In this document: piece after piece, positions 2,396 through 59,090 of the stretch
Layout of the letters: every line of letters begins with the position of its first letter
Numbering within the stretch: the first letter of the stretch is position 1
Source: Thermincola carboxydiphila
GTDB lineage: Bacteria; Bacillota; Thermincolia; Thermincolales; UBA2595
NCBI GenBank assembly: GCA_016841325.1
Contig: JAENZJ010000004.1
Location: forward strand, 62,001 to 126,000
DNA: 64,000 nt
Direction: 5' to 3'
Position numbers and translations under genes: made by a program
The notes under the pieces: generated by a model
Database searches by the model: none
Told to the model about the DNA's origin: nothing
What the model saw: the letters and a program-made list of their open reading frames with translations, nothing else

Positions 2396-2406
2396 GGTAT
2401 CCCTCC

Positions 2407-3651: not shown

Positions 3652-3680
3652 CTTCCGGACACCATCCTTTCTCAAACCTT

Positions 3681-4317: not shown

Positions 4318-5022
4318 TCATTCAGCCGTCACCCCGAATTTATATCCGACTCCCCGTACTGTTTTGATAAACCGGGGATTCGCCGGGTCCTCTTCGATTT
4401 TTTCCCTGGTCCGCTTAACCAGTGTCGTCACAATCCCCGTATCATCTGCATACTCTGTGTCCCATATCTGGTACAGCAGCTGTTCCCTGGTAAACACCTG
4501 CTTCGGGTGGCCGGCCAGAAGCCACAGCAGTTCAAACTCTTTTGGGGTAAGCTCTGTTTCCCGGTCCGCAACTTCAACTGTCCTGGATGTTCGGTTGATA
4601 GTGATCCCCGGAAATCTGATCACATCATCAGCCTCCGGATGGGCTGACCTGGCAGCTGCACGCCTCATGACAGCCTTGATGCGCAGCAGCAGTTCGGCGC
4701 TGTCAAAGGGTTTTGTCAGGTAATCATCACAGCCCAGGGATAAACCCATTATTTTGTCAAGGGTTTCATTTTTGGCCGAGAGTATTATTATCGGGACCTT
4801 ACTTATCTCACGGATTTTACGGCATACCTCAAAACCATCTATATGAGGCATCATAATATCCAGCAGAATCAGGTCAGGGGATGATTCTTCAAATACTGCC
4901 ATTACTTCACTGCTATCGGCCGCAGTAACAACCTCAAAGCCCTCCCTGCTGAGGAACCCTGTGAGGAATTTCAATATCCTGGGTTCATCATCAGCAACCA
5001 GAATCCTTTTTTTTTCACTCAT
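4318..5022 (-). CDS. OmpR/PhoB-family response regulator
   Basis: A 234-residue regulator. The N-terminal receiver domain shows the acidic pair (DDE, residues 11-13), the phosphoacceptor aspartate in LLLDIMMP (near 55) and the conserved lysine in YLTKPF (near 105). The C-terminal half is a winged-helix DNA-binding domain with the typical ELTPKEFELLWLL and VRGVGYKF segments. It lies 13 bases downstream of the sensor kinase gene and upstream of nrfH, so the likely job is control of the nitrite reductase operon. Start at 5022 follows GAGGGGAGGG. Confidence 0.93.
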   Translation of the reverse strand: MSEKKRILVADDEPRILKFLTGFLSREGFEVVTAADSSEVMAVFEESSPDLILLDIMMPHIDGFEVCRKIREISKVPIIILSAKNETLDKIMGLSLGCDDYLTKPFDSAELLLRIKAVMRRAAARSAHPEADDVIRFPGITINRTSRTVEVADRETELTPKEFELLWLLAGHPKQVFTREQLLYQIWDTEYADDTGIVTTLVKRTREKIEEDPANPRFIKTVRGVGYKFGVTAE

Positions 5023-5035
5023 ATCAGCCCTCCCC

Positions 5036-6676
5036 TCACTCTACACCATCATCAAACATCGGATATGCCGGCAGGAATACCTTAAACTCAGCCCCCTGTC
5101 CAATGACAGAAACAACTTCAATACGCCCCAGGTGGAGTTCCACTATCTTTTTCACCAGGGCCAGGCCAAGTCCTGTCCCCCCGAACTCCCTGGCAGGACC
5201 ACTGTTAACCTGATAAAAGGCATCAAATATTTTTTCCCTGTCTGCATCAGCAATGCCCGGACCCGAATCCCGAACAGTCAGTATAATCCCTTCATCAGGA
5301 ACAAGTGTGTCAGCCACACCAATTCTGATACTTCCCCCGGGAGTAGTAAATTTAATGGCATTTCCCAGCAAATTCTGGACCACATGCCTGACCTTCTCCG
5401 CATCTGCTATAATTGCCCCGGAATCTGAAATATCTGTGATTATTTTAATGTTTTTGCTGTCAGCCAGAGGTTGGAGCAGTCGGGTCACATCACCGGCTGT
5501 TTCTCCCACCCTGACCTCAGTAAGTTTTAGGGTCATTTTTCCGGACTCGGTTTTTGCCAGGTCCAGCAGGTCATTTATCAGTTCCAGCAGCTGCCTTCCG
5601 GAATCCCTGATTTCGGCAAGGTACTCTTTCTGCCGCGAATTAAGGCTGCCCGTTTCCAGGCACAGCAGTTCCTCAGTAAATGCCAGTACTGCAGTCAGCG
5701 GAGTTCTCAGCTCATGGCTCATGTTGGCCAGAAATTCCGATTTATACCGGCTTACTTCAGACAGCCTGAGGTTGGCGTCAGCCAGTTCGCTGGTCCGTTC
5801 GGCAACTTTTTGTTCGAGGCTGTCATACATCTCCTTCAGCCTTTCGGCCATATCCACAAACTTCTCAGTCAGTTCCCGGATCTCACCATAGGTCTGGAGA
5901 TCTTCAGGAAGTGCCGCCAGGTTCCCCCTGCCCAGTTCACTGCTGAACCTGTTCAGGCTGTCTATGGGTCTTGTGACAAATCTGTGAGTATGGAATATAA
6001 TTACCGCTGCCGAAACCGATATCGCCACAACTGTGAGCAGGATACTCTGTGTAATTGACCTGTTGAGGCTCGCTTCCTTCAGTTTCATGGGAACAGCTAT
6101 TGACAGCGCACCTGCCAGTTCTCCCGTCCGGTAACCCTCACGCGGATACCCGCTGATATCGGTTTCACCTTCCGGTTCCCCGTGGCAGGGCAGGCATGGA
6201 GGTGTTATATAAAGGGGAATCATGTAACGGAAATATCGTTCCCCGTCAATGGCATCAGTCCCCCAGTGTTCCCCGGGGCCACCGGTACCGGCCTCCCTGA
6301 AGGCAAGCAGGACCTCCCTTTCATATTCATCAGGCCTGTTTTCTGAAACCCGCGGCTTTAGGCTGACCTGCCTGATCCTGTACCGGGTATTTTCATTGAA
6401 GACACCACCAACCTGGCGCACCACTGCTGCCGGGTTCAGATGTTTAAATTCCAGGTTGCCCCTGGAGTCATAATTTATCCTGGGCTGGTTTTCAGCAGTC
6501 ACCTTCCGCAGCGCCAGTACCTGCTGAGCCAGGATACGGCTGTTTTCAAGGAGTTCCAGCTGCGCCTGTTTCTTTTGACTGTATATGTTCCAGACTATTC
6601 CACAAGCCATAACGACCGCAAGCACAAGGCTTGTACTACGTACAAGTCTGCTACCTATCCGGGTATTTTTTGCCAT
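5036..6676 (-). CDS. membrane sensor histidine kinase with c-type heme sensor domain
   Basis: About 546 residues from the ATG at 6676 (a longer form to 6796 is open but its extra 40 residues do not look like protein). Order: membrane helix (about 12-30), an extracytoplasmic DUF3365-type domain with one heme site CLPCH, a second helix, a HAMP region, a coiled coil, the H-box (MSHELRTPLT), N-box (NLLGNAIKFT) and G-boxes (DSGPGI, GGTGLGL). The heme site suggests sensing of redox state, NO or nitrite. It is coupled to the response regulator 13 bases downstream and lies upstream of nrfHA. Confidence 0.9.
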   Translation of the reverse strand: MAKNTRIGSRLVRSTSLVLAVVMACGIVWNIYSQKKQAQLELLENSRILAQQVLALRKVTAENQPRINYDSRGNLEFKHLNPAAVVRQVGGVFNENTRYRIRQVSLKPRVSENRPDEYEREVLLAFREAGTGGPGEHWGTDAIDGERYFRYMIPLYITPPCLPCHGEPEGETDISGYPREGYRTGELAGALSIAVPMKLKEASLNRSITQSILLTVVAISVSAAVIIFHTHRFVTRPIDSLNRFSSELGRGNLAALPEDLQTYGEIRELTEKFVDMAERLKEMYDSLEQKVAERTSELADANLRLSEVSRYKSEFLANMSHELRTPLTAVLAFTEELLCLETGSLNSRQKEYLAEIRDSGRQLLELINDLLDLAKTESGKMTLKLTEVRVGETAGDVTRLLQPLADSKNIKIITDISDSGAIIADAEKVRHVVQNLLGNAIKFTTPGGSIRIGVADTLVPDEGIILTVRDSGPGIADADREKIFDAFYQVNSGPAREFGGTGLGLALVKKIVELHLGRIEVVSVIGQGAEFKVFLPAYPMFDDGVE

Positions 6677-6796
6677 ATACATCACTCTTTGATCAGAATA
6701 AAGACTACCGTCAATCCTGTAACTGGGGAGAATTCCCTTACCCCTGCCTCGGAAAAAAAGACCAAAGAGGCTTTCTCCCTGGTCTTTAAAAGGCAC

Positions 6797-7364: not shown

Positions 7365-7393
7365 TTGACCAGCGAACCTATGTTCGGTATAAT
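7365..7393 (+). promoter_or_regulatory. promoter with LexA box in the spacer
   Basis: A -35 box TTGACC (7365-7370), a 17-bp spacer and a -10 box TATAAT (7388-7393). The spacer holds CGAACCTATGTTCG (7373-7386), a perfect inverted repeat of the Gram-positive LexA/DinR type (CGAAC-N4-GTTCG). LexA bound here would block RNA polymerase, so the two downstream DNA-repair genes are probably SOS-induced. Confidence 0.85.
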
Positions 7394-7427
7394 AGGTTAT
7401 GGAAATATTTTCAGGGGGGAATGGAAC

Positions 7428-8645
7428 TTGGACTTACTCCAAAAGCTCAGTTTACTTGGTGCAGCAGCAAAGTACGATGTCTGTGCAGCCTCAGGCTGCA
7501 GTTCAGGCGGACGTTCCGGCTTGCCTTCACCGGGAAGCGGGGTTTGTCACAGTTTTCTCCCTGACGGGAGGTGTATTTCCCTTTTTAAGGTTCTCCAGAC
7601 CAACTCCTGCCAGAAAGACTGTTTTTACTGCCCCAACCGTATCCAGCGCGATATACCCAGGGCAAGCTTCACCCCCGATGAACTGGCCGTGCTTTTCCTG
7701 GAATTTTACCACAGGAACTATGTCGAGGGGCTGTTTCTCAGTTCCGGCATCTGTAAAAGCCCCGGACATACCATGGAACAGATCATTAAGACTGCCGAAA
7801 TTCTGCGTTACAAATACAGGTTTAACGGTTATATCCACCTGAAAGTAGTACCGGGAGCCAAACCCGAATACATCGAACAGGCTGTCAGGCTTGCCAGCAG
7901 GGTATCTGTCAACATTGAAGCCCCTACAGCAGATTATTTGCAAAAACTGAGCCGGCTGAAAGACTTTGAGGATGGTATCATAAACCGGATGAAATGGATT
8001 AAACGGCTGCAGTCCGGCGGCCTGCTGCCTGCCGGACAGACAACACAGTTTATTGTGGGCGCGGCAGGTGAGAGTGATGCCTCCATCCTGAAGACTACTT
8101 CCGGCCTTTACCAGGGCATTGGCCTGAAACGTGTCTATTTCAGCGCCTTCCAGCCTGTGGCCGGGACACCCCTGGAAGGGATGCCCCCTGCTGCAGTCCT
8201 CAGGGAACACCGTTTATATCAGTGTGACTTCCTGTTCCGATTATATGGTTTTAAATTATCAGATATCAGTTTCAACAGTGAAGGCAACCTGCCTGAAGAC
8301 ATCGACCCCAAACTGAACTATGCCCTTAACAACTCTCACCTCTTCCCTCTTGAGGTAAACAGGGCATCCTACCGGGAACTCCTAAAGGTGCCTGGGATAG
8401 GCCCGGCTTCTGCACGCCGCATAGTAAACGCCAGGAAGAAGTTTAAATTTAATACCCTGGATGAATTGAAGAATACAGGTGTGGTTGTGAAAAGGGCTGC
8501 TCCCTTTGTTCAGGTTAACGGCAGGTACCGGGAATCATATAAACTTGTTCAGCAGCTTGAACTATGGAGGGATTCAGTTGATCATTCTGCACTCCGGCAG
8601 CCCAGGGTCATTTCTCAGGGCAGCCATGCTCTCTCGCTTGTATAA
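7428..8645 (+). CDS. radical SAM protein, putative DNA modification/repair (TIGR03916 type)
   Basis: About 405 residues starting at the TTG on 7428, which follows the ribosome site AGGGGGGA. The radical-SAM cluster motif is CQKDCFYC (C-x3-C-x2-C), with a further cysteine-rich stretch before it. The C-terminus has a helix-hairpin-helix segment (KVPGIGPASARRIV), a DNA-binding element. This matches the family annotated as putative DNA modification/repair radical SAM protein, which is nearly always next to a TIGR03915-type partner, as here (68-bp overlap). The chemistry is not known. The LexA box in the promoter supports a role in DNA damage. Confidence 0.88.
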   Translation: MDLLQKLSLLGAAAKYDVCAASGCSSGGRSGLPSPGSGVCHSFLPDGRCISLFKVLQTNSCQKDCFYCPNRIQRDIPRASFTPDELAVLFLEFYHRNYVEGLFLSSGICKSPGHTMEQIIKTAEILRYKYRFNGYIHLKVVPGAKPEYIEQAVRLASRVSVNIEAPTADYLQKLSRLKDFEDGIINRMKWIKRLQSGGLLPAGQTTQFIVGAAGESDASILKTTSGLYQGIGLKRVYFSAFQPVAGTPLEGMPPAAVLREHRLYQCDFLFRLYGFKLSDISFNSEGNLPEDIDPKLNYALNNSHLFPLEVNRASYRELLKVPGIGPASARRIVNARKKFKFNTLDELKNTGVVVKRAAPFVQVNGRYRESYKLVQQLELWRDSVDHSALRQPRVISQGSHALSLV

Positions 8646-9369
8646 AGGTCACTGTATGCACAAGAAGGAATATTCCTCATCCCTGTTCCGGGGACAGAAA
8701 GCTCTTGACTGTGACAGCATAAGTTCCGACGACGTCATCAACAGATATATACAGACCTACGGTCCCCTGGATTGGCTGAACAGTAAAAAAGCCGGCAGCC
8801 TGGCTGAAGCAGTCTTGTATGCTTCCCGCTACAATGCTCCCGACAGGTACCGGCTGATATCAAAAGTATTGCTCCAGGCCCTCGAATATGGCCCAGACTA
8901 CGTCCTGGGCAGGGTCTCAAAAGATGCCCGCAACATGTTTAACAGGTCTCGCAGGGTCTGTATGGAGGCCCACAGAGCTAATGGTTTTATCAGGCTGACT
9001 CCTGTGGAAAACCCAAAAGGCAGCTTTATGGTGGGCAAGGCCGAATTCCGGCATGACATCTGTGACCTGGTACTGCGCTACTTCAGCCGCCGCCACCAAG
9101 GGTGGAAAATTTACCTGATTTCAGGTAATACAAATACAGAACAGGCAGCATTAACCGGACAGACAGCGTGTTATCTCGAAAAAAATGTTGTTAAAACCGT
9201 CCCTGTATCAGACCTGCCATTTGAACTGCCTGGTGACGATTTTGAGAGGCTTTGGGAAACATACTATGAATCCCAGTATATTGAAGGCAGAAAAAACCTG
9301 GCCCTGGCCAGGAAACACCTGCCCCAAAAATACTGGTCATGGGTTCCGGAAGGAAACAAACTGAAGTGA
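8578..9369 (+). CDS. TIGR03915-type DNA metabolism protein, partner of the radical SAM protein
   Basis: About 263 residues from the TTG on 8578, chosen because GGAGGG lies 6 bases upstream and because the family starts with a short strand plus SGSPGSFL-like segment (usual form YDGSFEGFL). The C-terminal half contains the region RFTPVENPKG-like (here RLTPVENPKG) and FRHDICDLVLRYFSRR, then WEYYESQ-like WETYYESQYIEGRKN, typical of the family (DUF4130 region). It overlaps the radical-SAM gene by 68 bp, so the two are coupled. Function is unknown beyond this genetic pairing. Confidence 0.85.
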   Translation: MIILHSGSPGSFLRAAMLSRLYKGHCMHKKEYSSSLFRGQKALDCDSISSDDVINRYIQTYGPLDWLNSKKAGSLAEAVLYASRYNAPDRYRLISKVLLQALEYGPDYVLGRVSKDARNMFNRSRRVCMEAHRANGFIRLTPVENPKGSFMVGKAEFRHDICDLVLRYFSRRHQGWKIYLISGNTNTEQAALTGQTACYLEKNVVKTVPVSDLPFELPGDDFERLWETYYESQYIEGRKNLALARKHLPQKYWSWVPEGNKLK

Positions 9370-44191: not shown

Positions 44192-44243
44192 TTGACACAG
44201 GGCGGTCAGTTTTCATATAATTAATTTATCGAACACACGTTCG
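44192..44243 (+). promoter_or_regulatory. promoter with LexA box (ImuB-like gene)
   Basis: TTGACA (44192-44197), 18-bp spacer, TATAAT (44216-44221), then CGAACACACGTTCG (44230-44243), a perfect Gram-positive LexA inverted repeat placed over the start of transcription. Confidence 0.88.
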
Positions 44244-44282
44244 CAGATAGGCTAAACCTTTCTAATATGGAGGTTGGCGGAA

Positions 44283-45356
44283 ATGAGGATAATTGCACAC
44301 ATCTTCCTGCATGATTTCCGGGGCAGCGAATCTGAACTTGCCAGCAAATGCCTTAACCTGAGCCCAAGGGTGGAAACCCCCTGTGCTAATGAGGCCTTTA
44401 TTGACCTGGGCGGCAGAAAACCTCCCGGGGCAAGGCTAATCAGCGCTTTTGCCGGGACAGTCATCCCTTCCCTGGGGAGTTTTGCCACAGTCAGCCTGGC
44501 CCCCTGCCGCCTGCTGGCAAAGGCTTTGACAATGGCATATCTCTCTAACCCTCCAGGTCCGGGAAAATTGCCCGGAGGGACACTGACAAAGGCATATGAC
44601 AGATTCCGTCTCTGTGTCCTCAGACCGGAAAAAACCGGAGACTTTACCTCCGGGCTGCCGGTAGAATTTATGTGGCCATTGGAAGATAAGGTTATCCTGC
44701 GCCTGAAAACCCTGGGGCTGAAGACATTCGGCGATATCAGCGGGATTCCCCTGACAATGCTTTACAGCCCGTTTGGTTCCCTGGCCCCCCTGATTATGGA
44801 TTACAGCAGGGGTATTGATACCTCAAATGTGCCTTTTTTCAGCCCCCCCGACCGGATTACATATCACAGCCGCTGTGAGTGTACTGACATCACCGGGCTG
44901 GAAGAAACCATGAAACAGGCTGCAGTCCACCTCAGCCAAACCCTGCAGGAACGGGGAAAAAGCTACCGGGAACTGTCCCTGTCCATCTTCTCTGAAAATT
45001 TTTTCACCGAAAGCGTTACCTCTTCCTTTACCAGGGGGAAGTATGATATCCGTTCAGTATACCATGACTGTATGAATCTCCTGAAAAAACTGCAGATTGC
45101 AGGCCCGGTGACAGAGCTGTCCCTGGCAGCAGGACGGCTCACAAATTGTGTCCACAGCCAGATGTCTCTTTTTGAAGACCCCAAAACCCTTAACGGAAGG
45201 CATGCGGAACACCGCGAAAAAATAGCCAGGGTCTGTGAAAACCTGGCCTCCAGGTATTCACCCGGGATTGTCAGGATGGGCAGCGCCCTTCCGGTAAGCC
45301 GTAGGGAACAGATGCTGATGTTTGTTGACCCCCTGCGCAGTGGTGGCAAACCCTAA
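44283..45356 (+). CDS. ImuB-like Y-family DNA polymerase protein, probably inactive
   Basis: About 357 residues from ATG 44283 (GGAGG nine bases upstream). The middle and C-terminal parts are those of Y-family polymerases: a helix-hairpin-helix region (LKTLGLKTFGDISGIPLTML) and a little-finger domain (RCECTDITGLEETMKQ). The N-terminus is short: the first catalytic DMDAFFAS-type motif is replaced by IAHIFLHDF and only ANEAFIDLGG remains of the second. This is the ImuB pattern, a non-catalytic clamp adaptor for an error-prone DnaE. A clamp-binding motif QMSLF is present near residue 297. It is under a LexA promoter, and a DnaE with DUF6504 lies 7 kb downstream. Confidence 0.83.
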   Translation: MRIIAHIFLHDFRGSESELASKCLNLSPRVETPCANEAFIDLGGRKPPGARLISAFAGTVIPSLGSFATVSLAPCRLLAKALTMAYLSNPPGPGKLPGGTLTKAYDRFRLCVLRPEKTGDFTSGLPVEFMWPLEDKVILRLKTLGLKTFGDISGIPLTMLYSPFGSLAPLIMDYSRGIDTSNVPFFSPPDRITYHSRCECTDITGLEETMKQAAVHLSQTLQERGKSYRELSLSIFSENFFTESVTSSFTRGKYDIRSVYHDCMNLLKKLQIAGPVTELSLAAGRLTNCVHSQMSLFEDPKTLNGRHAEHREKIARVCENLASRYSPGIVRMGSALPVSRREQMLMFVDPLRSGGKP

Positions 45357-45395
45357 TCATCCATAACAGGCTATAGCATACACGGGAACGGACTT

Positions 45396-46757
45396 CTATA
45401 GGTTTTTCTTAAAAATATCACCATGACATTTCCGGCACAAATCATTACCCGCTCCCCTTAACATTTTATCATTCCCGCCCCGGCCATGGGGTTCATGGCA
45501 GTCAGCACAAGTAATTTTTTCCTGACGGATAGCTTCACCGTGAGATACATCCGGATTCATAAATTCCCCTGTATCATGACACAGGGTACATATTTGTTCC
45601 CTGGGGGCCGGCAGCAGTGATGTGTTGTCACTGTAATGTACGAGATGGCAGTTGAGACAGTCCCCGTCAGGCTTGTTGCCTCTTACTCTGCCGTGTTCAC
45701 TGCCTGCCATACTATCCACAACCTGGGCATGGCATTCGGCACAAACACTGTTCCCTTTTTGGTCCAACAGGTAAAGGTTCTCCGCACCGTGCCCCCGGTG
45801 GCATGATGTGCATGAAAAGCCGGATTCCCCTACCGGGTGATTGCTGGCTGCACTGTAAACAGGCCACATTTCAATATGGCATCCTGTACACCCATTAACC
45901 GGTAACAGGTATGGTAATACAGAACCATGGGGCTGGTGACATGACCGGCACATACCGGTTTTGGCAGGTTCATGAATAACAGGTTTCAGCATTTCTGCCT
46001 CAACTTCCGGATGGCATTGGAAACAGGCAAAGGGTACCGCTCTGTCCAACAGTGACTGGCCATTGGTGGCATGAGGGTCATGACACCGGGTACAGTTTCT
46101 TTCGGCAAATGGTCCGTGCTGATAAGGCATTGACATTTCAAGCACATGCTCTCTATGGCAGGTAGCACAAACCATAGCGGTATCCATCCGGGTCATCCCC
46201 TGATAATCAGAAGCATGGGGATCATGGCATGAGGTGCATTCACCCTGTTCAAAAGGCCGGTGCTGATTTGTCACCATACTCTTTTCGGACTGCAGTCTGT
46301 GACAGGAAGCACACAGGTCCTTTTTGCCAGCCCGTAGCAGTTTAGGTTCACTGCCGGCGTGGGGGTCGTGACAGTCTGTACAAAAGCCCTGCCGCCATGG
46401 TTCATGCTGTATGCCAGCCAGAGTTTCCTGTAAGCTGAGGTGACAGGTATTGCAGAGCTGCTGCCTGTCAGTTATCAATTCCATCTCAATATCAGGGTCC
46501 TGCAAATGCTGCTCATTAAAGAGGTGGCAGTCTGTACAGTACCAGTTTGCAAAAGGAAGGTGTACGGAACTTTGCTGGCCGGCGGCGGCAAACATATCAT
46601 TATGGCAGGTTTTGCACATCTCCTCTGTTTCTGCATTTTTCTTACTGTATTTTGAAAAAAGTTCATCCATATTCTGAGCAGGAATGCCCATTTTCAATGT
46701 CACTGCCATTGCCAGGGCAGCCAAAAGCATCATAAAAACCGCTGGTTTCCCGGTCAT
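45396..46757 (-). CDS. 17-heme c-type cytochrome
   Basis: A 453-residue protein with an N-terminal signal or anchor helix (about residues 7-24) and 17 CXXCH heme sites, beginning CKTCH and ending CRKCH. Many fall in doubled pairs (CTDCHDPHA, CTSCHDPHA, CTRCHDPHA), the doubled-CXXCH layout of NrfA/DmsE-like multiheme proteins. The repeating unit is about 45-50 residues. It overlaps the 38-heme gene by four bases (ATGA), so both are made from one message. The likely role is electron transport outside the membrane, possibly to extracellular acceptors. Confidence 0.9.
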   Translation of the reverse strand: MTGKPAVFMMLLAALAMAVTLKMGIPAQNMDELFSKYSKKNAETEEMCKTCHNDMFAAAGQQSSVHLPFANWYCTDCHLFNEQHLQDPDIEMELITDRQQLCNTCHLSLQETLAGIQHEPWRQGFCTDCHDPHAGSEPKLLRAGKKDLCASCHRLQSEKSMVTNQHRPFEQGECTSCHDPHASDYQGMTRMDTAMVCATCHREHVLEMSMPYQHGPFAERNCTRCHDPHATNGQSLLDRAVPFACFQCHPEVEAEMLKPVIHEPAKTGMCRSCHQPHGSVLPYLLPVNGCTGCHIEMWPVYSAASNHPVGESGFSCTSCHRGHGAENLYLLDQKGNSVCAECHAQVVDSMAGSEHGRVRGNKPDGDCLNCHLVHYSDNTSLLPAPREQICTLCHDTGEFMNPDVSHGEAIRQEKITCADCHEPHGRGGNDKMLRGAGNDLCRKCHGDIFKKNL

Positions 46758-49700
46758 AATGCCACCTCCTTCCCCTTATCCTGTTTCTGCCATGCCGGTT
46801 CCCGATGCACAGTATGGCATTCACGACACTGCACCTTTGTCAGGTCAAATTCCCAGTGTGCCTGGATGGCATTCCCGTGTTCAATATGACAGCTATTACA
46901 TTCGGTTCTCTTTTCCCTGATTACTGTTATTACAGTCCTGTTACTACTTTCATGACATGTGTTGCAGCCCCGGTCCTGCCTTTTATGTTCCTGGTCCAGA
47001 CTGACTTTGTGACATCCGGCACAGGCAAAGCCGGCATTACGGAACTCCGCTGTATGCTTGGGAGTTACGTCTCCGTGAATACTGTCATGGCAGGAAACAC
47101 ATGATGTATCATTATTTTTTACTGCCTTTCTGACATCATCCGGGGAATCGTCGTCATGGCAAGTTTTACAGGTCATCTCTTCCCCGTCACTGTTCACCCT
47201 GTCAACATGTTCGTCAGAAATGACGCGGCTGTGGCAGCCCGAGCAATTTACCGTCAGAATGTCAGGAAAAACGGATTCATGAACCTCAGTTATATCGTCA
47301 TGGACATTATGACAGGCATCACAGTACCGGTTTTGGGTATTTACGGCAAAATTGACTTTGGAAACATCTGTCTGGTGACAGATCCTGCACGAATAGCCGC
47401 GTTTCTGGTGTTCTCCATCAAGTTTTTTGGAATGACACCAACTGCAGTCAATTTCCTTGTTTTTTACAAAATCAGACTCATGACTGACATCCGGATGTAT
47501 TTGGTGACAGGCCGAGCATGCAGTATTGTTCGCTGCAACGGCATCAATGACGTCAGGTCTGCTGCTGTCGTGACAGGTTGCACAGTTTTCATTGTGATTT
47601 GCCGTCAATGAAGATGAATGGCACAGAGTACAGTTAGCTGACATATTCGTTACGTGGGCAGAGCTTACATCCTGGTGTACAGAGTGGCAGGAATCACATC
47701 CCGTGCTTCCGGCAGCCACAGACCGGGTTACCTGGTCTGTAGCCGAGCTATGGCAGAGGTTACAGTCACCCTTCCCCTGGTGTTCCGTGGTCAGTACCCC
47801 ACTGTGGCAGCCCGAACAGTCAAAGGTCTTGTTGTAGACAAAATCCGCTGTGGTATGAGCCGGTTCCACAGAAGACAGGGTATGAATACCGTGGCAGGCA
47901 TCACACTGCGTGTTACTGCTGTATATGGCTTCAGCCACGGTTGTGTTTGTACTGTCATGGCAGGCCGCACAATCCAGTCCCTGTGCCTGGTGTTCTATAT
48001 CAAGCATGTCATTGTGGCATCCGGAACAGTCCACTACCGGAGTGGTTACATAATTCGAAATATGGGCAGCAGCCACATCAGAGTGAATGTAGTGACACGA
48101 ATCACAGTCATTGCGACCGCCCAGTATAGAATCACTTATCTGCTGAACGGACGAAGCATGACAGAGGTTACAGTCTCCTGCAGGGCTATGTTCTGTTGTC
48201 AGAACATTGACATGACATCCCGAGCATTCAAAGGTCGGGGCATATACATAGTTCGCAGTAGTATGGGGCAATTCCACAGATTCAGGTGTATGTATACCAT
48301 GGCAGGCATCACAGTTGTTAATATTACCGGTTATCGCCCCATAAACTGTCTCATTGACAGTGTCATGGCAGGTGTTGCAGGTAAAGCCACGTCCTTCATG
48401 CTCTGTGTTTAAAACATCATCATGGCACTGGGCACAGTTTACCACAGGACTGATAACAAACCCGGAATCGTGAGCAGCCGTCACATCTGTGTGGAACTCA
48501 TGGCAGGCATTACAGTCGGTCTGTGATCCGCTGACAGCTGCCTTAACGTCAGCCCTGTTGCTGAGGTGGCAGGATACACAGTCAAGCGGTTGGCCGGTAA
48601 CAGACGAAATCCTTCCCCCGTGCTCTGTATCCAGCCTGTTTAAGTGGCACTGGCTGCAGTTAAAAAGTACCGGATCAGTATATATTGAGCTGTGAAGCAG
48701 GGCCATGTCGTGATAGTCTGCAGGATGGCACGCTGTACAGCCCGTATCTCCGGAATATACCGCATCCTGAACAACTGTATCCGTACTTCCGTGACAGACC
48801 TCACAGGTATAATTCCTGCCTGTGGCAGTCTTTGTCCTTATGTTTGCCGTATGTTCCTCATCAATATCAGGATTGTGACAGGTCCGGCAGTCATCCTCAA
48901 GTGCGGTGCCGTGAATAAGCCGGCTTGCCTCAAGTGTGTCGTGCGGGGTGTATGTATGGCAGGCACCGCAGGTTTTATCAGCCGCACTTATAGCGCCTCT
49001 GACACGTGCATCCGGGCTCAGGTGACAGGTGTTGCAGGAAACCTGGACCCGCTCACTGTCTGTCCTCCCAGGCCGTGCATGCTCTCTGGTAAGGGCCAGG
49101 GCATGGCAGGTATTGCAATTATTCCGGTCTGTCTTGTGAAGCTCAGGTATATCGTGATTATTTAGGGGCCTGGTGGGATTCACATATCCATTGTACCATC
49201 CTGTCAGCGGTGAACCGGGCTGGTGGCAGATGATGCAGTCCCATATTTCCCTGTTGGCAGTGACCCTGACAGGATATGTTGAACTATACCCCCGCAGCTG
49301 GTACGAAATCGACGGGCTGGACCCGTGGGGGGCCTCCGGCGTACCGTCCTCCAGACCATGGCACTGCACACAGTCAGCAGGATAGGTTATGTAGTTATGA
49401 CAGGCATCACAGTCGTTGGAGGAATGGGTGCCGTAGAAATTGATAGTATTATGCAGACTCTGGAATGGTATCCCGGAACCTTCGGCAATATCGTGACAGG
49501 CTGAACAGTTTACCATATTTGAGTCAGGCATTTCAGGATATGTACTGGTATTGAACATCCAGCTGATAGATGTGGTAAGCCCTCCCGGGTCGTAAGCACT
49601 CAGGCTCACCGTATGATAAGCTTCATCAGCCAGGGGTTCTGCCGGGACATGACTTACCAGTCCTGATGCAGAATCAAAACTGTGGGATACCTTCCGGCCG

Positions 49701-51826
49701 TTGACCTTCATTGTTATAGCATCCCGGTGAACGCCGTCATTATCAGTAACCTTTGCCGAAATAAGTGGAGTCAGGTCAGTAAGGTATGTTACCGGCTGCC
49801 ACCCGGATATTACCGGATAAGTCCTCCCTGTGAAGTTCCAGGCAGTCGTACCGGAATTGCCCAGAACGTCTTCACTCGTCAGAGAGAGGGTATGCGGGCC
49901 GTCCTTTATTGTTCCCTCATAAGTAACATATACTGTCTTCCTGCTGGTTATAATGTAACTGCCACAGCTGTCAGCCATCCCCTCATACCTGATTTGTGCC
50001 GGCAAAACCTGACCATCCAGTTTAAGGGTAACCTCCGGAGTAGAGCCTGTCCCTTTGATATCAGAGAAATCAGTCAGTTCTCCTCTAAATTTCAGCATAC
50101 CGTTGCTGATAATCATCCCGTCATAGAATTCACCTGTCAGTGCAGCCCCCGGCGGCCTGTTGTCTATAGAAAAAGTCCAGCTCGCGGTTCCGGTATTATA
50201 TACAGTATCAGCGGCAGAAACGTCTATAGTGTGGCTGCCATAGCCAAAATTGTGGTTGTATGTCACTGTTCCGGCAGCCGGGTCATAAATATGGGGTACC
50301 AGAGAACCATTATGATATACCACAATAGCTGCAGGGTCTATATTGTTATTGGCATCACTCACATTAACAGATGCAAATGCAGTGTCCCCAACCACAGAAT
50401 TGGGGGCAGGATTAAAGTTGGTGAACCCTGGCTTCGTCCCTACCGTAAAATTCCATGTCTCCTTCAGCATATTACCGACACTGTCGGCAATGGTGACTTC
50501 AGCAGTATGGACACCGTCATTCAGCCCGGATGTCCCAAAACTTACAGTACCTTCCTTATAGCTGTCAACTACATACCACGTCGCGCCGCAGGAGTCTGAT
50601 TCCCAGTGCCCCTTGTACTGAAAGGCTGCCGGCACTGGGGCCCCGTCTATTTTTGCCGTAACACTGTTTTTGTCAAGGTTGTTGGCACTATCCCTGACAT
50701 ACAGCGATACCGCAGGGCTGTTACCGTTCACCGTGCTGCCCTTATCCGGTTCCCAAACAACAGGAGCCGGTGGCAATGTATCTGTCTGGAAGCTCCACAT
50801 CCTGGCAGCGGTATTTCCGGCAGCATCACTGACCTTAAGGCTTACCTCATAGCTGCCGCTGGGGAAGCTTCCCTCATAGTACACTGTACCGGTGGGAGTA
50901 TAAACGGTATGTGCTACGGTGCTTCCATTAATTTGCAGGATTACGGAATCCCAGTCGATGGCATTGGTGTCGCTTACTGTTGCAGACACCCTGTCAATAA
51001 CCCCCAGGCTGCTGTTGTCTGCCGGGCTGAGACTGCTTATTTCAGGGGGAACCCCTACTGTAAATGACCAGGACTCTGTCATTAAGTTGCCCTTTACATC
51101 GGCAATACCTATTTCAACTGTATGAGTACCGTCTGCCAGCCCTGATGTCGCGAAACTGACAGTCCCTTCCCGGTAACTGTCCACCACCCAGACCGTTTCG
51201 GTCCAGCTGCTGCAGGAATCGCCATATGTAACGGTCTCCCAGTGGCCCTTAAACTTAAATTCAGGCGTTACCGGCTGACCATTCAGGACTGCACTTACTG
51301 AAGCCTCATCCAGGTTGTCAAACAGGTCTGTGACATAAAGAGAAACCGCAGGATTTGAAACAGTCACTGATGAATTCCTGCCCGGGCTCCAGCTTCCGGG
51401 GTTAGGTGCATTATCCACAGCGAAAGACCAGTTGGTGGATTGAAGACCCGCTGTATCATCATATACACTGGCCTGAACCGTATGTGATCCCTCTGAAAGG
51501 TCAGCTGGAGGTGTGTAACTGATATTGTAACTCCCCGGGGTGCTTCCCTCGGAAAGACCGGGGGTAACAGCTGCACCATCCAGTAACATACTGATATCCG
51601 TTTCACTGACTGTCCCTTCATATACTGAAATGCTCACACTTATATCAGGCCTTGTGTTTTCAATAATTTCACCATCTCCGGGCACCGGGGTGGTAAACAA
51701 TATACCGCTGGCGGCAGTTGCGGCAGCAACCCACCCTACAACTGCCAGGACAAATATTATAAGGCCCAGCATCAACCTTTTGGCTGGAGTAAGAGAGCTG
51801 TAGGCTTTTACAATTTTTTCGGTCAT
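46754..51826 (-). CDS. giant 38-heme c-type cytochrome with Ig-like modules
   Basis: About 1690 residues from the ATG at 51826 (ribosome site GAGGTGG). Residues 20-45 form one hydrophobic anchor. Residues about 50-770 are beta-rich Ig-like/cadherin-like modules, with one module type occurring twice (VSLYVTDLFDNLDEASV and VSLYVRDSANNLDKNSV, each followed by YKGHWE and SFATSGL/SFGTSGL). From about residue 775 to the end there are 38 CXXCH sites by my count, in a repeat that alternates CDACHGIHT-like and CSGCHxxVLTTEH-like units. The C-terminus is Lys-rich. The layout suggests an anchored stalk that carries a heme wire through the cell wall. Codon usage looks like the neighbours. Confidence 0.9.
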   Translation of the reverse strand: MTEKIVKAYSSLTPAKRLMLGLIIFVLAVVGWVAAATAASGILFTTPVPGDGEIIENTRPDISVSISVYEGTVSETDISMLLDGAAVTPGLSEGSTPGSYNISYTPPADLSEGSHTVQASVYDDTAGLQSTNWSFAVDNAPNPGSWSPGRNSSVTVSNPAVSLYVTDLFDNLDEASVSAVLNGQPVTPEFKFKGHWETVTYGDSCSSWTETVWVVDSYREGTVSFATSGLADGTHTVEIGIADVKGNLMTESWSFTVGVPPEISSLSPADNSSLGVIDRVSATVSDTNAIDWDSVILQINGSTVAHTVYTPTGTVYYEGSFPSGSYEVSLKVSDAAGNTAARMWSFQTDTLPPAPVVWEPDKGSTVNGNSPAVSLYVRDSANNLDKNSVTAKIDGAPVPAAFQYKGHWESDSCGATWYVVDSYKEGTVSFGTSGLNDGVHTAEVTIADSVGNMLKETWNFTVGTKPGFTNFNPAPNSVVGDTAFASVNVSDANNNIDPAAIVVYHNGSLVPHIYDPAAGTVTYNHNFGYGSHTIDVSAADTVYNTGTASWTFSIDNRPPGAALTGEFYDGMIISNGMLKFRGELTDFSDIKGTGSTPEVTLKLDGQVLPAQIRYEGMADSCGSYIITSRKTVYVTYEGTIKDGPHTLSLTSEDVLGNSGTTAWNFTGRTYPVISGWQPVTYLTDLTPLISAKVTDNDGVHRDAITMKVNGRKVSHSFDSASGLVSHVPAEPLADEAYHTVSLSAYDPGGLTTSISWMFNTSTYPEMPDSNMVNCSACHDIAEGSGIPFQSLHNTINFYGTHSSNDCDACHNYITYPADCVQCHGLEDGTPEAPHGSSPSISYQLRGYSSTYPVRVTANREIWDCIICHQPGSPLTGWYNGYVNPTRPLNNHDIPELHKTDRNNCNTCHALALTREHARPGRTDSERVQVSCNTCHLSPDARVRGAISAADKTCGACHTYTPHDTLEASRLIHGTALEDDCRTCHNPDIDEEHTANIRTKTATGRNYTCEVCHGSTDTVVQDAVYSGDTGCTACHPADYHDMALLHSSIYTDPVLFNCSQCHLNRLDTEHGGRISSVTGQPLDCVSCHLSNRADVKAAVSGSQTDCNACHEFHTDVTAAHDSGFVISPVVNCAQCHDDVLNTEHEGRGFTCNTCHDTVNETVYGAITGNINNCDACHGIHTPESVELPHTTANYVYAPTFECSGCHVNVLTTEHSPAGDCNLCHASSVQQISDSILGGRNDCDSCHYIHSDVAAAHISNYVTTPVVDCSGCHNDMLDIEHQAQGLDCAACHDSTNTTVAEAIYSSNTQCDACHGIHTLSSVEPAHTTADFVYNKTFDCSGCHSGVLTTEHQGKGDCNLCHSSATDQVTRSVAAGSTGCDSCHSVHQDVSSAHVTNMSANCTLCHSSSLTANHNENCATCHDSSRPDVIDAVAANNTACSACHQIHPDVSHESDFVKNKEIDCSWCHSKKLDGEHQKRGYSCRICHQTDVSKVNFAVNTQNRYCDACHNVHDDITEVHESVFPDILTVNCSGCHSRVISDEHVDRVNSDGEEMTCKTCHDDDSPDDVRKAVKNNDTSCVSCHDSIHGDVTPKHTAEFRNAGFACAGCHKVSLDQEHKRQDRGCNTCHESSNRTVITVIREKRTECNSCHIEHGNAIQAHWEFDLTKVQCRECHTVHREPAWQKQDKGKEVAL

Positions 51827-51892
51827 CTCTTCCACCTCTTTCTCCGGGCTGATTTGAGGAGCTTGTTTTAAATTGGTTGTTACTACTTTCTA

Positions 51893-52032
51893 TAATAATT
51901 ATCGTAAAATTTGTCCCTAAACTTGAGCCATCTAAGTTTAGCTGCCTTTTATAAAGACAAGAAAATTTTTCCTGCTACACCTTGTAATAATTATAGACCC
52001 CCCTGTCCCTGTGAACAACAAATAATAATTAT
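51893..52032 (-). promoter_or_regulatory. triple TAATAATTAT motif upstream of the cytochrome operon
   Basis: The 10-mer TAATAATTAT occurs exactly at 51893-51902, 51985-51994 and 52023-52032. A hairpin CTAAACTT/AAGTTTAG lies at about 51919-51943. The complement ATAATTATTA is found twice in the LysR-cytochrome intergenic region at 11263 and 11309. It may be an operator, but the sequence is AT-rich and chance is possible. The region 51827-52115 holds no gene I can support. Confidence 0.4.
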
Positions 52033-52115
52033 TTTTTAATAAACCCTGCCATACCCTGTTACCTGAAAAAAATGGAATTTGCCTGATGATTCTTTCATCA
52101 AATACAATATTATGA

Positions 52116-52140
52116 TATAATTCTTACGAACATACGTTCG
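52116..52140 (+). promoter_or_regulatory. -10 box and LexA box (DUF6504-dnaE operon)
   Basis: TATAAT (52116-52121) is followed by CGAACATACGTTCG (52127-52140), a perfect LexA inverted repeat in the same place, relative to the -10 box, as at 44230. The -35 is weak (TTTCAT near 52093). Confidence 0.85.
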
Positions 52141-52185
52141 CAATTGCGTCGAAACCAACAGGTAAAACAGCAAAGGATGATTACA

Positions 52186-52434
52186 TTGGTAAAACTGATT
52201 AACAAAAATATTGAAATAAGATACAGCACTAATGACACCCCCCTGGCTTTCCGGTTTAACGGCAAGTGGCTTCCGGTAAGTCAGGTTCTTGAAATATGGA
52301 AGGATACCGGCACATGGTGGGATGGGGAAAGTGAAAAAACCTTCTACAGGGTGAACACTCATGAAGGAAGCCTTTTTGAACTTTACAGGGACAATAATAG
52401 CCTGGCCTGGTTCCTGTACCGGGTTTATGATTAG
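52186..52434 (+). CDS. DUF6504 family protein, mutasome-associated
   Basis: About 82 residues from the TTG at 52186, with AAAGGATGA upstream. The pattern PLAFRFNGKWLPVSQVLEIW, WWDGESEKTFYRV and LYRVYD is that of DUF6504 proteins, which are found with ImuB-like polymerases and error-prone DnaE. The biochemical role is unknown. It is 30 bases upstream of dnaE under the same LexA-controlled promoter. Confidence 0.82.
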   Translation: MVKLINKNIEIRYSTNDTPLAFRFNGKWLPVSQVLEIWKDTGTWWDGESEKTFYRVNTHEGSLFELYRDNNSLAWFLYRVYD

Positions 52435-52464
52435 GAAGACTTTGATGATTAGGGAGGCCTCTTT

Positions 52465-55400
52465 ATGAGTTTTGTGCACCTTCATGTCCATTCCCCGTTT
52501 TCTTTTCTCGACGGGGCCGGCAGAATTGAAGAAATGGTCACCTCTGCAGTTACAGCAGGTATGCCGGCACTGGCTCTTACAGACCATAACAACCTCTGTG
52601 CCGCCGTTCTTTTCTCCGGCCTGGCCAAAAAGGCCGGGATCAAACCAATCACCGGTGTCGAAATAACACTGGGGGATGACAGCCACCTTACCCTCCTGGC
52701 CAAAAATCCCCATGGCTATACAAACCTGTGCCGTATCCTGAGCGCTGCCCACCTGGGGAATCCGCGCCAAACCCCGTGCACTTCTGTGGAAACCCTCAGG
52801 GCTTACAGCAGTGACCTGATAGCCCTGTCAGGATGCCGCCAGGGCAGGATTCCGCAGCTTATCCTGAAGGGGAATTACCGTCTGGCTGAGGAAGCAGCCA
52901 AAACATTTACTGATATTTTTGGCAGGGAAAACTTCTTTATCGAAATGCAGCATGATTTTCTTCCGGGAAGCCGGTTTCTCAACAACGCCCTGGATAACCT
53001 GGCCTCCCACCTGGGACTGAAGACAGCGGCCACCAACAATGTCCATTATGTTACCAAAGAACAATTTAAAATCCATGACCTGCTTACCTGTGTGCGGACC
53101 CTGACAAGGCTTGGGGAAATCCACCCCGAACGGCGCCTCAATGCGGAAAACTACCTGAAACCGCCTGCCGATATGGCCCGGATCTTTGGCGCCTATCCCC
53201 AGGCAGTGACAAATACCCTTGCCATTGCCGAAATGTGTATACCGGCCCTGGAAACAGGGAAGCGGCTGTTTCCCGCCTTTCCCGACATCCCCCCCGGGGA
53301 AACTGCTGCCGGTTACCTCAGGAAGCTTACTTACAAAGGTGCCGAGGAGCGCTATCGCTGCCTGCCCCGGCATGTGACCACACGCCTTGACCATGAACTC
53401 GACATCATCTGCCGCCTGGGGTTTGAGGATTATTTTCTTTTGGTCCGGGATGTCGCCAACTACGCCCGCAGGGAAAAAATCAGGTATGCCGGGCGGGGTT
53501 CAGCCGCAGATTCGGCTGTCGCATACTGCCTGTATATCACAGAGGTTGACTCCATAGCCCGGGGCCTCCTTTTTGAACGTTTCATGAGCCTGGAGCGCGC
53601 CCAGACACCTGATATTGACATAGATTTTGATTCCCGCCACCGGGACAGGGTAGCAGCATACCTCTATAAGAAATACGGCACTGACCGGGTGGCCACAGTC
53701 TGTACCTACAACACTTTCAGGGCTCGTTCCGCCTTCAGGGACCTGGCCAAAGCCATGGATTTCCCGGCCGCAGAGATTGACCGCCTGGCCAAAAAACTGC
53801 CATATATCCATGCCGACCAGATTGACCTGGCTGTAGATCGTTTTCCGGAACTCCGCGAAAGCGGAATTAATTCTCCCGGGTTCCGGGACCTCCTTGACTA
53901 CTGTGCGGCAGTCTCAGGATTTCCCCGGTTTATCGGCACCCACCTGGGGGGCATTGTTGTCAGCCGGCGCCCGTTATCTGAGGTAACACCCCTTCAGGAG
54001 GCTGCCAAGGGAATAGTTGTCACCCAGTATGACAAGGAATTTATAGAAGACCTGGGGCTGGTCAAGCTTGACCTGCTGTCCCTGAGGACCATGGCTGCAA
54101 TTGAAGACTCCACCCTGACTATCAGGGAAACAGACAGTAAATTTGACTACGAAAAAATTCCCCTGGAGGATAAGGCAACCTTTGATATGATTAACAGGGG
54201 GGAAACTGTCGGGGTCTTTCAGCTGGAGAGTCCAGCCCAGCGCGCCCTGCAAAGCCGGCTCGGGGCCTCAGAAATGGAGGACATTATTGCCAGTGTGGCC
54301 ATTATCAGGCCCGGACCCATCAAGGGCAATATGGTAGAACCCTTTATTGCCCGCCGCCAGGGAAAAGAACCGGTGACATACCTGCACCCTAAACTTGAAC
54401 CCATCCTGAAAAAAACCTATGGGGTTGTCCTGTTCCAGGAACAGGTCATTGAAATTGCCACAGCAATTGCCGGTTTTACCCCCGGGGAAGCCGACCGCCT
54501 GCGCCGCGTGATGACCCATGCCCGGTCCCACCGGGAAATGGCCGGCATCGGAGCGGAGTTTGTCAGAAAAGCCATTGCCAACGGGGTCAGCACAGAAGTC
54601 GCCGAAACCATCTTCTCATACATTACCGGATATGCCAGCTACGGTTTCTGTGAGGCCCATGCAGCGGCATTTGCCACCACTGCTTATAAAACAGCATATC
54701 TTATCAGGCATTATCCGGCCCATTTTTTTGCCTCAGTGCTCAGCCACCAGCCGATGGGATTTTATGACTCCAATACCCTGTGTGTGGAGGCACGCAGGAG
54801 AGGGGTGACCATCCTCCCCCCTGATATTAACCTCAGCCGGGAGTCTTTCACTGTTAATGCCGATACCATCCGCATTTCCCTGGGGCAGATAAAAGGGGTT
54901 AAGGAGAATTCCCTGAAAAAGATCCTGGCAGCCAGGGAAAAGGGCCCCTTCAGGTCCTTTGACGATTTTCTGAAACGTGTTTCCATAGGCCGGGATGTCC
55001 TGGAGAACCTAATCCGCTGTGGGGCATTTGACAGCCTGCATCATAACCGGAAGCAGCTGTTATGGGCCATTCCGGCGGCAGGCAGCAAAGGGAATACCAG
55101 TGCGCTGTCCTTCGGCGGGGAAGGTCCCCTTACCGGAGAATCTTCCCTCACAGATAATACGGTGACCCTTCCCCCTGTTCCGGACTTTACGCCACAGGAG
55201 AAATTCAACATGGAGTATGAGATACTCGGCATAGATGTAACCTGCCATTATATGAGTCATTGGCGCAGCAGGCTGGAACGCCGGGGATTTCTGAACAGCA
55301 TGAACCTTGCGGCAGCCGGTAACGGCAGCCAGGTCAGGGTCGCCGGCCTGCCTGTCCGCCCGCACCGCCCCCCTACCAGAACAGGCAAAATAGCCGCCTT

Positions 55401-55578
55401 TTTTTCACTGGAGGACGAATTCGGCCTGATTGACATAACTGTTTTCGAAAAAACCTACCAGGAGTTCGGGAACCTCCTTTTTACCAGGCCTGTCCCTCCG
55501 CTCCAGGTTTGGGGTACATTACAGCACAGGGGTAACGGTTTCTCCATAATCGCCCGTAAAATATTCCGCCTGCAGTAA
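52465..55578 (+). CDS. dnaE2: DNA polymerase III alpha subunit, DnaE2/ImuC type
   Basis: A 1037-residue C-family polymerase. Order: PHP domain (FVHLHVHSPFSFLDGAG, ALTDHNNL), palm with PDIDIDFDSRHR (catalytic aspartates near residue 384), fingers (AYKTAYLIRHYPAHFFASVL), tandem HhH and a C-terminal OB fold (VRVAGLPVRP, FFSLEDEFGLIDITVF). It is shorter than the replicative DnaE (about 1150) and matches the length of error-prone DnaE2/ImuC. The LexA box, the DUF6504 neighbour and the ImuB-like gene upstream make an SOS mutagenesis role likely. Ribosome site GGGAGG. Confidence 0.92.
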   Translation: MSFVHLHVHSPFSFLDGAGRIEEMVTSAVTAGMPALALTDHNNLCAAVLFSGLAKKAGIKPITGVEITLGDDSHLTLLAKNPHGYTNLCRILSAAHLGNPRQTPCTSVETLRAYSSDLIALSGCRQGRIPQLILKGNYRLAEEAAKTFTDIFGRENFFIEMQHDFLPGSRFLNNALDNLASHLGLKTAATNNVHYVTKEQFKIHDLLTCVRTLTRLGEIHPERRLNAENYLKPPADMARIFGAYPQAVTNTLAIAEMCIPALETGKRLFPAFPDIPPGETAAGYLRKLTYKGAEERYRCLPRHVTTRLDHELDIICRLGFEDYFLLVRDVANYARREKIRYAGRGSAADSAVAYCLYITEVDSIARGLLFERFMSLERAQTPDIDIDFDSRHRDRVAAYLYKKYGTDRVATVCTYNTFRARSAFRDLAKAMDFPAAEIDRLAKKLPYIHADQIDLAVDRFPELRESGINSPGFRDLLDYCAAVSGFPRFIGTHLGGIVVSRRPLSEVTPLQEAAKGIVVTQYDKEFIEDLGLVKLDLLSLRTMAAIEDSTLTIRETDSKFDYEKIPLEDKATFDMINRGETVGVFQLESPAQRALQSRLGASEMEDIIASVAIIRPGPIKGNMVEPFIARRQGKEPVTYLHPKLEPILKKTYGVVLFQEQVIEIATAIAGFTPGEADRLRRVMTHARSHREMAGIGAEFVRKAIANGVSTEVAETIFSYITGYASYGFCEAHAAAFATTAYKTAYLIRHYPAHFFASVLSHQPMGFYDSNTLCVEARRRGVTILPPDINLSRESFTVNADTIRISLGQIKGVKENSLKKILAAREKGPFRSFDDFLKRVSIGRDVLENLIRCGAFDSLHHNRKQLLWAIPAAGSKGNTSALSFGGEGPLTGESSLTDNTVTLPPVPDFTPQEKFNMEYEILGIDVTCHYMSHWRSRLERRGFLNSMNLAAAGNGSQVRVAGLPVRPHRPPTRTGKIAAFFSLEDEFGLIDITVFEKTYQEFGNLLFTRPVPPLQVWGTLQHRGNGFSIIARKIFRLQ

Positions 55579-57681: not shown

Positions 57682-58581
57682 CTAAGCAGCTTTTGGATTT
57701 GACTTGGTCCCATAGACCTGAGCCGGGCACTGGCCTCCAATCGAAGAATGAGGCCGATAGGTGTTATATTCGTGAATATATTTGGTTACAGCAATTCTCA
57801 ACTCTCTGGGACTGTTAAATTCATTAATATAGATACAATCATACTTGAGTGTGCGGAAAAAACGTTCTGTTCTTACATTGTCTAAGGCTTGGCCCTTGCC
57901 ATCCATAGAGATTTTTACCCCATTGGACTCTAGTAAGTTTTGAAAGTCAGGGTTGGTGAAGTGACCGCCTTGGTCACTATTGATGATTTCAGGTTTGTGT
58001 TGGCTAAGGGCTCGTCTCATACAGGCTAAAACAAAGGATTTATCCAAGGTACTTGATAGCTCATAATCCACGATACAACGGCTGTACCAGTCAATAATAA
58101 CAAAAAGATACATAAACCCTATTTTCATTCGAATATAGGTGATATCTACACCCCAGACTTGATTTGGATGGTCAATGGCCAGGTTCCTTAACAAATATGG
58201 CCGGATATATTGCGCATGATACCGTTTACTCAGATTAGGCTTTGGATATATGGTGTAAATCCCCATGTCCCGCATCATCCGACGCACTTTTTTCCGGTTT
58301 ATTAGCAGTTTGTCATCTCGTCTCAATATTCGGGTGATGGTCCGATAGCCCCAAGTAGGGTGGGCTGTATGTATCTCATCAATTCTGCGCATGGTAAACA
58401 AGTCCTCATCCGAGATTGGCTTCTGATCAGGTGGCTGGCGGTAGATACTGGTTCGATTTATGCTTAATAATTCAGCCTGGCGTTTAATGGTGATTTTAGA
58501 ATTGTTTCGATCAACGAAACTTTTTCTCCCAGTTTGGTCCGACAATTTGCTCAGATTTTTTTTTGAGCCAGTCCACCTCAT
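57682..58581 (-). CDS. IS3 family transposase OrfB (DDE integrase domain)
   Basis: A frame of 299 residues with the HTH_21 region (IDEIHTAHPTWGYRTITRIL) and an rve integrase core: the first D in WGVDITYIR, the second in NSDQGGHFTN, and the E in VRTERFFRTLK. It would be made by frameshifting from OrfA within a run of nine A (near 58556). The frame relation between the two is +1, not the usual -1 of IS3 elements. Confidence 0.92.
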   Translation of the reverse strand: MRWTGSKKNLSKLSDQTGRKSFVDRNNSKITIKRQAELLSINRTSIYRQPPDQKPISDEDLFTMRRIDEIHTAHPTWGYRTITRILRRDDKLLINRKKVRRMMRDMGIYTIYPKPNLSKRYHAQYIRPYLLRNLAIDHPNQVWGVDITYIRMKIGFMYLFVIIDWYSRCIVDYELSSTLDKSFVLACMRRALSQHKPEIINSDQGGHFTNPDFQNLLESNGVKISMDGKGQALDNVRTERFFRTLKYDCIYINEFNSPRELRIAVTKYIHEYNTYRPHSSIGGQCPAQVYGTKSNPKAA

Positions 58582-58834
58582 AGGTTAGCTGACCAACTTT
58601 ACGCTCCAAATCTGCAACTCGCTGATTCTTTTGCTCAAGTTCCTTTTCGGCTTCGGATGGACCCTTCTTAAACACCTCCGCAGCTCGTTCCAGGAACTCA
58701 CTTTTCCAACGGCTTATTACAACTGGACTTATGCCATACTTGGCGGCAATCTCGTTGACGGTGGAGGCCTCCTGTAGCACTTCAATAACTACTTTACTTT
58801 TGAATTCGGGTGGATAATAATTTCGTTTTGTCAT
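58511..58834 (-). CDS. IS3 family transposase OrfA (helix-turn-helix)
   Basis: About 107 residues from ATG 58834. It starts TKRNYYPPEFKSKVVIEVL, has the HTH segment (VNEIAAKYGISPVVISRWK) and a leucine-zipper-like coiled coil (EKELEQKNQRVADLERKVGQ) used for dimerisation. It ends shortly after the A9 tract where it overlaps OrfB. No obvious ribosome site, as is common for IS3 orfA. Confidence 0.9.
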   Translation of the reverse strand: MTKRNYYPPEFKSKVVIEVLQEASTVNEIAAKYGISPVVISRWKSEFLERAAEVFKKGPSEAEKELEQKNQRVADLERKVGQLTYEVDWLKKKSEQIVGPNWEKKFR

Positions 58835-59090
58835 GAGTTTATTATAACTTACTTTTTTGATTTTGTGTCTCACCTTATGGGTTCATTATAGTATCCAGGG
58901 CATGATTCATGTTCATACAATGGCTTTTACACAGAGCACTATGCCCATGCTGAGAGAACAATTTAAAAGTTTCCTGCTTCAGGAAATTGACCTGTATAAT
59001 AAATTCATAGTGTATGGTGAAATCAAGGGATTTCTGGAAAGCCCTCCACGATATAAGGGGTGATATTTCCAGTTTCCGGCAATTTGAACA

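Follow-up and report, generated by a model that had tools for sequence, protein, structure and literature searches.

The analysed window is a stretch of 64,000 nt from a 3.43-Mb draft assembly in 49 contigs (genome G000), and it contains genes for an error-prone polymerase cassette on the plus strand, separated by a pair of multiheme cytochrome genes on the minus strand. The evidence makes it very likely that a segment was inserted into an ancestral operon consisting of a LexA box and the genes for an inactive Y-family protein (iPolY), ImuB-C, and DnaE2, that this operon is now divided into two LexA-box transcripts, and that the cytochromes are positional cargo. The locus is a genome rearrangement and not evidence for a link between respiration and mutagenesis.

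Gene content and predicted regulation of the split locus

The reading frames confirmed the gene order described in the sequence-only reading, with plus-strand halves placed around the minus-strand cytochrome genes. The first transcript is headed by a TTGACA-18-TATAAT promoter and an adjoining LexA box (44192–44243, plus strand) and contains iPolY (44283–45356, plus strand), for which the ORF list gave a TTG start at 44274 and the ATG at 44283 is likelier. The iPolY protein contained the clamp motif QMSLF, a RecA-NT-like segment (a resemblance judged by eye), and the conserved tail SRREQMLMFVDPLR, and its catalytic palm was lost. Its Pfam match was restricted to IMS_C, the little-finger domain, without a match to the IMS domain. 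In the alignment of 21 relatives, the palm motif was altered, and nearly all of the aligned proteins possessed the clamp motif (QxxLF-type), an L..L..KY...I...G segment, and the SRREQML-DP-R tail, the DP-R end of which was missing from the G113 protein. The fingers were missing in the window's genus: about 60 residues of this region (window 44283–44400) were lost from iPolY of the genus and of G003 and were kept in G001, G002, and G008.

The second plus-strand half encodes DUF6504, a standalone ImuB-C protein of 82 residues (52186–52434; probable start, TTG at 52186), and a DnaE2-type error-prone Pol III alpha subunit (52465–55578). Both identities, as originally proposed, were backed by Pfam/NCBIfam, with DUF6504 scoring above the cut-off. 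Another DnaE, encoded on contig 31, was 43% identical to the DnaE2 of the window, which is distinct from the replicative DnaE. The label "ImuB-like" first given to iPolY was correct in that this is a Y-family little-finger protein; it is not ImuB proper, being an inactive PolY (iPolY/ImuY) without the ImuB-C domain of true ImuB. Because iPolY lacks this domain and DUF6504 is a separate ImuB-C, as in Deinococcus deserti, the unit can be assigned from its sequences to the imuY/iPolY–standalone ImuB-C–DnaE2 type of cassette. A canonical ImuA-ImuB-DnaE2 mutasome was ruled out, as ImuB-C is separate from iPolY and no imuA was present within the operon of the intact relatives. A literature search turned up no paper that refers to DUF6504 by this designation, and no solved structure of DUF6504 was found.

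Two genes on the minus strand lie between these halves. Their CXXCH motifs numbered exactly 38 (1693 aa) and 17 (453 aa), in agreement with the heme counts first reported. The 38-heme cytochrome (46754–51826; GTG start at 51835 in the ORF list, ATG at 51826 likelier) consists of an N-terminal hydrophobic segment, Ig-like repeats, a standard 10-heme domain that recurs in numerous paralogues of the family, and some 28 additional hemes, the majority arranged in tri-heme repeats of approximately 67–70 residues, suggesting repeat growth on a 10-heme ancestor. The 17-heme c-type cytochrome (cyt17; 45396–46757) is DmsE/NrfB-like and belongs to the doubled-CXXCH group; by inspection, it also has an N-terminal hydrophobic segment. 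In the C-terminal part of the 38-heme protein (window 46754–48700), hemes were spaced by about 26/29-18/19-22 residues in tandem tri-heme units. On account of the biology of Thermincola (PMC7911101), we infer a role of both cytochromes in extracellular electron transfer. No close source copy of the pair was found; the phylum scan gave relatives with 32–48% identity over the long Ig/10-heme part, and the best relatives of the pair were 44–48% identical. Multiheme cytochrome genes were abundant in these genomes, and cytochromes as inserted cargo therefore need no special reason.

Exact LexA-type palindromes were located at 44230 (CGAACACACGTTCG, 44230–44243) and at 52127 (CGAACATACGTTCG, 52127–52140), in accordance with the claim that each plus-strand half in the window has its own box. 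The assembly contained five exact CGAACN4GTTCG sites, and about three are expected from base composition alone; this rarity proves little, and the argument for both boxes is therefore their position. The box at 44230 lies directly 3′ of a promoter matching at 12 of 12 positions, and it was also found 5′ of iPolY in G005, G001, G002, G003, and G008, with near-exact versions in G004 and G009. The box at 52127 follows a second −10 element, TATAAT (52113–52140 together, plus strand), and the start of DUF6504 is 46 bp downstream of the box. The genome encodes lexA, with three boxes of the same type upstream of lexA itself. SOS induction of both mutasome halves is predicted from these sites.

Other features of the window were also recorded. 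A third exact LexA box, at 7373, heads a putative radical-SAM gene for DNA modification/repair (TIGR03916) and a partner gene (TIGR03915, scoring below the cut-off) at 7365–9369, likely to form an SOS-regulated repair pair. Genes for NrfA/NrfH nitrite reductase, a heme-type sensor kinase, a response regulator, and an HPP-family protein (1832–6796) were absent between the same neighbours in the congeners G004 and G005; this region appears to be another respiratory island of the contig that was gained (or lost). Downstream of dnaE2, an IS3-type transposase ORF pair (57682–58873) had no orthologue at that place in the congeners.

Intact operons in relatives and the traces of the probable insertion

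The cassette-type iPolY was present in seven of the nine genomes of the family. In the congeners G004 and G005, iPolY, DUF6504, and dnaE2 formed a single overlapping operon with one LexA box. The order was unchanged in G001, where the spacer ahead of dnaE2 is longer, and the cassette was intact in G009, which represents the sister/outgroup family. When 398 genomes of the phylum were scanned, iPolY was found in 21, and the genes were adjacent in 12 of the 13 iPolY genomes outside the order (one of the 12, G244, was visible only to DUF6504 owing to a contig end). Uninterrupted operons thus occurred both in close relatives and in distant Bacillota, and the interrupted three-part order was not broadly conserved. 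Both flanks of the locus were syntenic with the congeners at 84–90% identity, and the insert was absent there. Of about 17–19 closely spaced same-strand gene pairs that were checked against the congeners, this was the only one clearly broken; this baseline covers the window, and the other listed separations in it were judged to be small-ORF or annotation effects.

Homology to the congeners ended after GGCAAA (45345–45350) and restarted at GGTAAA (52161–52166), delimiting a 6.8-kb segment (45351–52160) whose only recognisable genes are the two for cytochromes. The 42 bases 3′ of the insert (52161–52202, plus strand) translate as GKTAKDDYIGKTD followed by a stop codon and match the iPolY tail of G005 and G004 (in G005, GKTAKDDYSGKIN and a stop codon). 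This remnant of the original iPolY 3′ end lies 6.8 kb from the gene itself and differs from the congeners by point changes. The iPolY of the window stops early, at a stop codon supplied by the insert; as this is a few codons beyond the conserved tail, nothing conserved was lost. The intact relatives, the stranded iPolY end, and the DnaE2 tree (below) bear out the original proposal of an insertion into an ancestral operon. A counter-point is that deletion between the GGYAAA copies might have removed the segment from the congeners; their iPolY tail beyond DPLR was not conserved in other genera.

The GGYAAA copies in the flanks would be compatible with a target duplication of 6 bp or with joining at microhomology. 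No transposase, integrase/recombinase, or terminal repeats were seen at the insert edges, and a mobile genetic element was rejected in view of the lack of a recombinase/transposase or terminal inverted repeats at the ends. Foreign composition of the cytochrome genes was considered and set aside: their GC content was 0.50, within the range of their neighbours, and their GC3 was 0.49–0.50 compared with 0.59–0.61 in iPolY and dnaE2, which is weak evidence. A 9-bp inverted match was observed across the insert junctions (TAATCATCC, near 45353–45361, and GGATGATTA, near 52175–52183).

The second LexA box sits within the inserted, non-homologous segment. The 355-bp intergenic region with the second promoter had no related copy in the nine family genomes beyond 30 bp of native flank; because related sequence was absent, the box would either have been brought in with the insert or have arisen later. 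The analysis could not trace it to a duplicated iPolY promoter or to sequence copied from a different SOS gene.

Under the preferred reading of an insertion, the ancestor would have had one SOS operon with the order LexA box, iPolY, ImuB-C, and DnaE2. The segment, with its self-contained two-gene cytochrome operon on the opposite strand, would have entered the iPolY/ImuB-C junction just 3′ of the conserved C-terminal tail of iPolY and just 5′ of the ImuB-C ribosome-binding site, one of only a few sites at which an insert spares every conserved codon. The second −10/LexA box inside the insert would now head the downstream half, and the mutasome is predicted to be formed in trans from two LexA-repressed transcripts. 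The three proteins would probably assemble with RecA into an error-prone translesion complex, in which iPolY would bind the clamp and RecA, ImuB-C would act as a bridge, and DnaE2 would polymerise. The cytochromes, putative extracellular electron-transfer proteins, would be carried by position only.

Breaks in other genomes and alternative explanations

Cassette breaks were found in four further genomes. In G008, a minus-strand gene for an 861-aa Ig/10-heme cytochrome occupies the same iPolY/DUF6504 junction, and iPolY is followed by a hairpin. In G003, the gene downstream of iPolY encodes an FG-GAP protein on the minus strand and runs to the contig end, and in G002, a minus-strand MFS transporter gene lies between DUF6504 and dnaE2 (L026, 5983–7158), with no extra LexA box seen. 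In the distant G117, a cluster of genes for Crp, ferredoxin, CO dehydrogenase, and an oxidoreductase, named from their sequences and not by family search, splits iPolY from dnaE2 (L159, 5684–14878). Both iPolY and dnaE2 have a LexA box in this genome, and a further box lies upstream of DUF6504, which is found on a different contig. The DUF6504-dnaE2 half of G008 is severed from the iPolY promoter by the cytochrome (L025, 7830–7935), and a second LexA box was looked for in this half and not found; cut off from the iPolY promoter and without a box of its own, the DnaE2 of G008 may have escaped SOS control. The generalisation that each half keeps a LexA box thus holds for the window genome and G117, but not for G008. 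In the DnaE2 tree, the split state in G000, G008, and G117 forced three separate changes.

The cytochrome in G008 raises the question of an older, shared event, in which an Ig/multiheme cytochrome gene entered once in the ancestor of G008 and the window's genus and was later lost in G002 and in the ancestor of G004 and G005, in the latter by GGYAAA deletion. The junction and orientation are the same in G008, as are some upstream and downstream neighbours, and two random inserts of one gene type would be a coincidence. The two junction cytochromes, however, were only about 30% identical, and the copy in the window was 48% identical to one at another G008 locus. The cytochrome tree placed the G008 junction copy outside (support 90/91), and G008 has neither cyt17 nor a second LexA box. 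This explanation also needs three events compared with two. Because a single clade of the window and G008 cytochromes was only borderline rejected (p-AU 0.058), it keeps some weight, and we regard it as unlikely but worth consideration.

The suggestion that the site is a landing spot was partly sustained: relatives do carry other inserts at the junction or adjacent to it, but these are mostly unrelated, and shared ends, an integrase, and repeats were all absent. These absences weigh against a genuine hot spot for inserts that works by a specific mechanism, such as a recombinase target in the conserved 3′ end of iPolY, even though a minus-strand gene directly follows iPolY in three family members (G000, G008, and G003). 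Gene-sized cassette breaks were found in 4 of 7 family genomes and 1 of 14 others (Fisher p 0.025; 0.061 when the truncated G003 is left out). Because few genomes were compared and they are not independent of each other, the excess in the family is no more than suggestive. Survivorship, the junction being one of few tolerable positions, accounts for the position without any mechanism, and we consider such a hot spot rather improbable.

Whether electron transport and mutagenesis are linked was asked in the sequence-only reading, and no such link was supported. Functional coupling would mean that the cytochrome operon is kept by the mutasome for co-regulation of the two processes. Redox inserts do occur in three genomes (cytochromes in G000 and G008, the CO dehydrogenase cluster in G117), and the convergent ends of iPolY and cyt17 are 39 bp apart with no recognisable terminator, so that SOS read-through could run antisense. 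Most cassettes, however, were contiguous and without a redox insert or neighbour, the inserted genes differed and included the MFS and FG-GAP protein genes, and redox cargo is expected in genomes full of multiheme genes. No LexA box was present near the cytochrome start; the nearest, at 52127, is about 290 bp away in a promoter facing the other way. In G008, a hairpin separates iPolY from its cytochrome. Functional coupling is consequently very improbable. Equally far-fetched is the broader idea that the junction is a recurrent redox-gene capture site in thermophilic anaerobic Bacillota, where convergent SOS transcription from iPolY represses captured cytochromes and thereby couples DNA damage to the shutdown of extracellular electron transfer. 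An assembly artefact joining two loci, conceivable in a draft of 49 contigs, is scarcely credible, since it would need two wrong junctions, both junctions and all frames were coherent, the iPolY remnant shows point changes relative to the congeners, the stop codon and the LexA box contributed by the insert are in usable places, and synteny holds along the contig on either side.

Relation to known cassettes and significance

A cassette of this kind has already been described, and the locus in the window is its split variant. Genetic tests in D. deserti have shown that UV mutagenesis requires both ImuY and DnaE2, and a standalone imuB-C has been described (PMC8072749). The D. deserti gene annotated as DUF6504 sits between the Y-family gene and dnaE2; in a single comparison, the DUF6504 of the window was 30% identical to D. 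deserti imuB-C over its length (E 5e-13). The DnaE2 proteins were 31% identical, and no significant pairwise BLAST similarity was found between the iPolY of the window and D. deserti ImuY. The two cassettes share an inactive Y-family protein, a standalone ImuB-C, and DnaE2, and LexA control like that in D. deserti is predicted for the window from its boxes; unlike that of D. deserti, the operon in the window is without lexA and is split by cytochrome genes into two LexA-box transcripts.

The iPolY-ImuB-C-DnaE2 cassette has been predicted to work with RecA, and the gene content and order of the intact relatives resemble those of the putative DnaE2X-iPolY-ImuBC-RecA complex of the Kyrpidia tusciae type (PMC6511836, PMC12926913). 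The iPolY of the window likewise has the RecA-NT-like segment, the clamp motif, and the conserved tail. It differs from that type in that the cassette is interrupted and the iPolY fingers are deleted in the genus, and the DnaE2X assignment is putative.

Mycobacterial imuA′-imuB and dnaE2 are both LexA-controlled. They are also split from each other (PMC6511836), so that mutasome parts come from separate transcripts under SOS control, as predicted here; unlike in the mycobacterial ImuA/ImuB system, an insert lies between the halves in the window, and the cassette contains no ImuA. The multiheme cytochromes OcwA, ImdcA, PdcA, and CwcA of Thermincola contain 6–10 hemes (PMC7911101). The 38-heme protein comes from the same bacterial group and, like them, is presumed to be an exported multiheme electron-transfer protein, but it combines Ig-like repeats and a 10-heme domain with about 28 further hemes.

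The locus provides a before-and-after case of a stress operon surviving a cut, in which the relatives preserve the unbroken state and the remnant shows where the break occurred. A LexA box of its own precedes the downstream half, an outcome that was reached separately in the distant G117. This suggests that iPolY, ImuB-C, and DnaE2 need co-regulation, not co-transcription. The imuY-imuB-C-dnaE2 cassette is now placed in Thermincola-type anaerobes, and an unusually heme-rich cytochrome, apparently built by repeat expansion, is documented.
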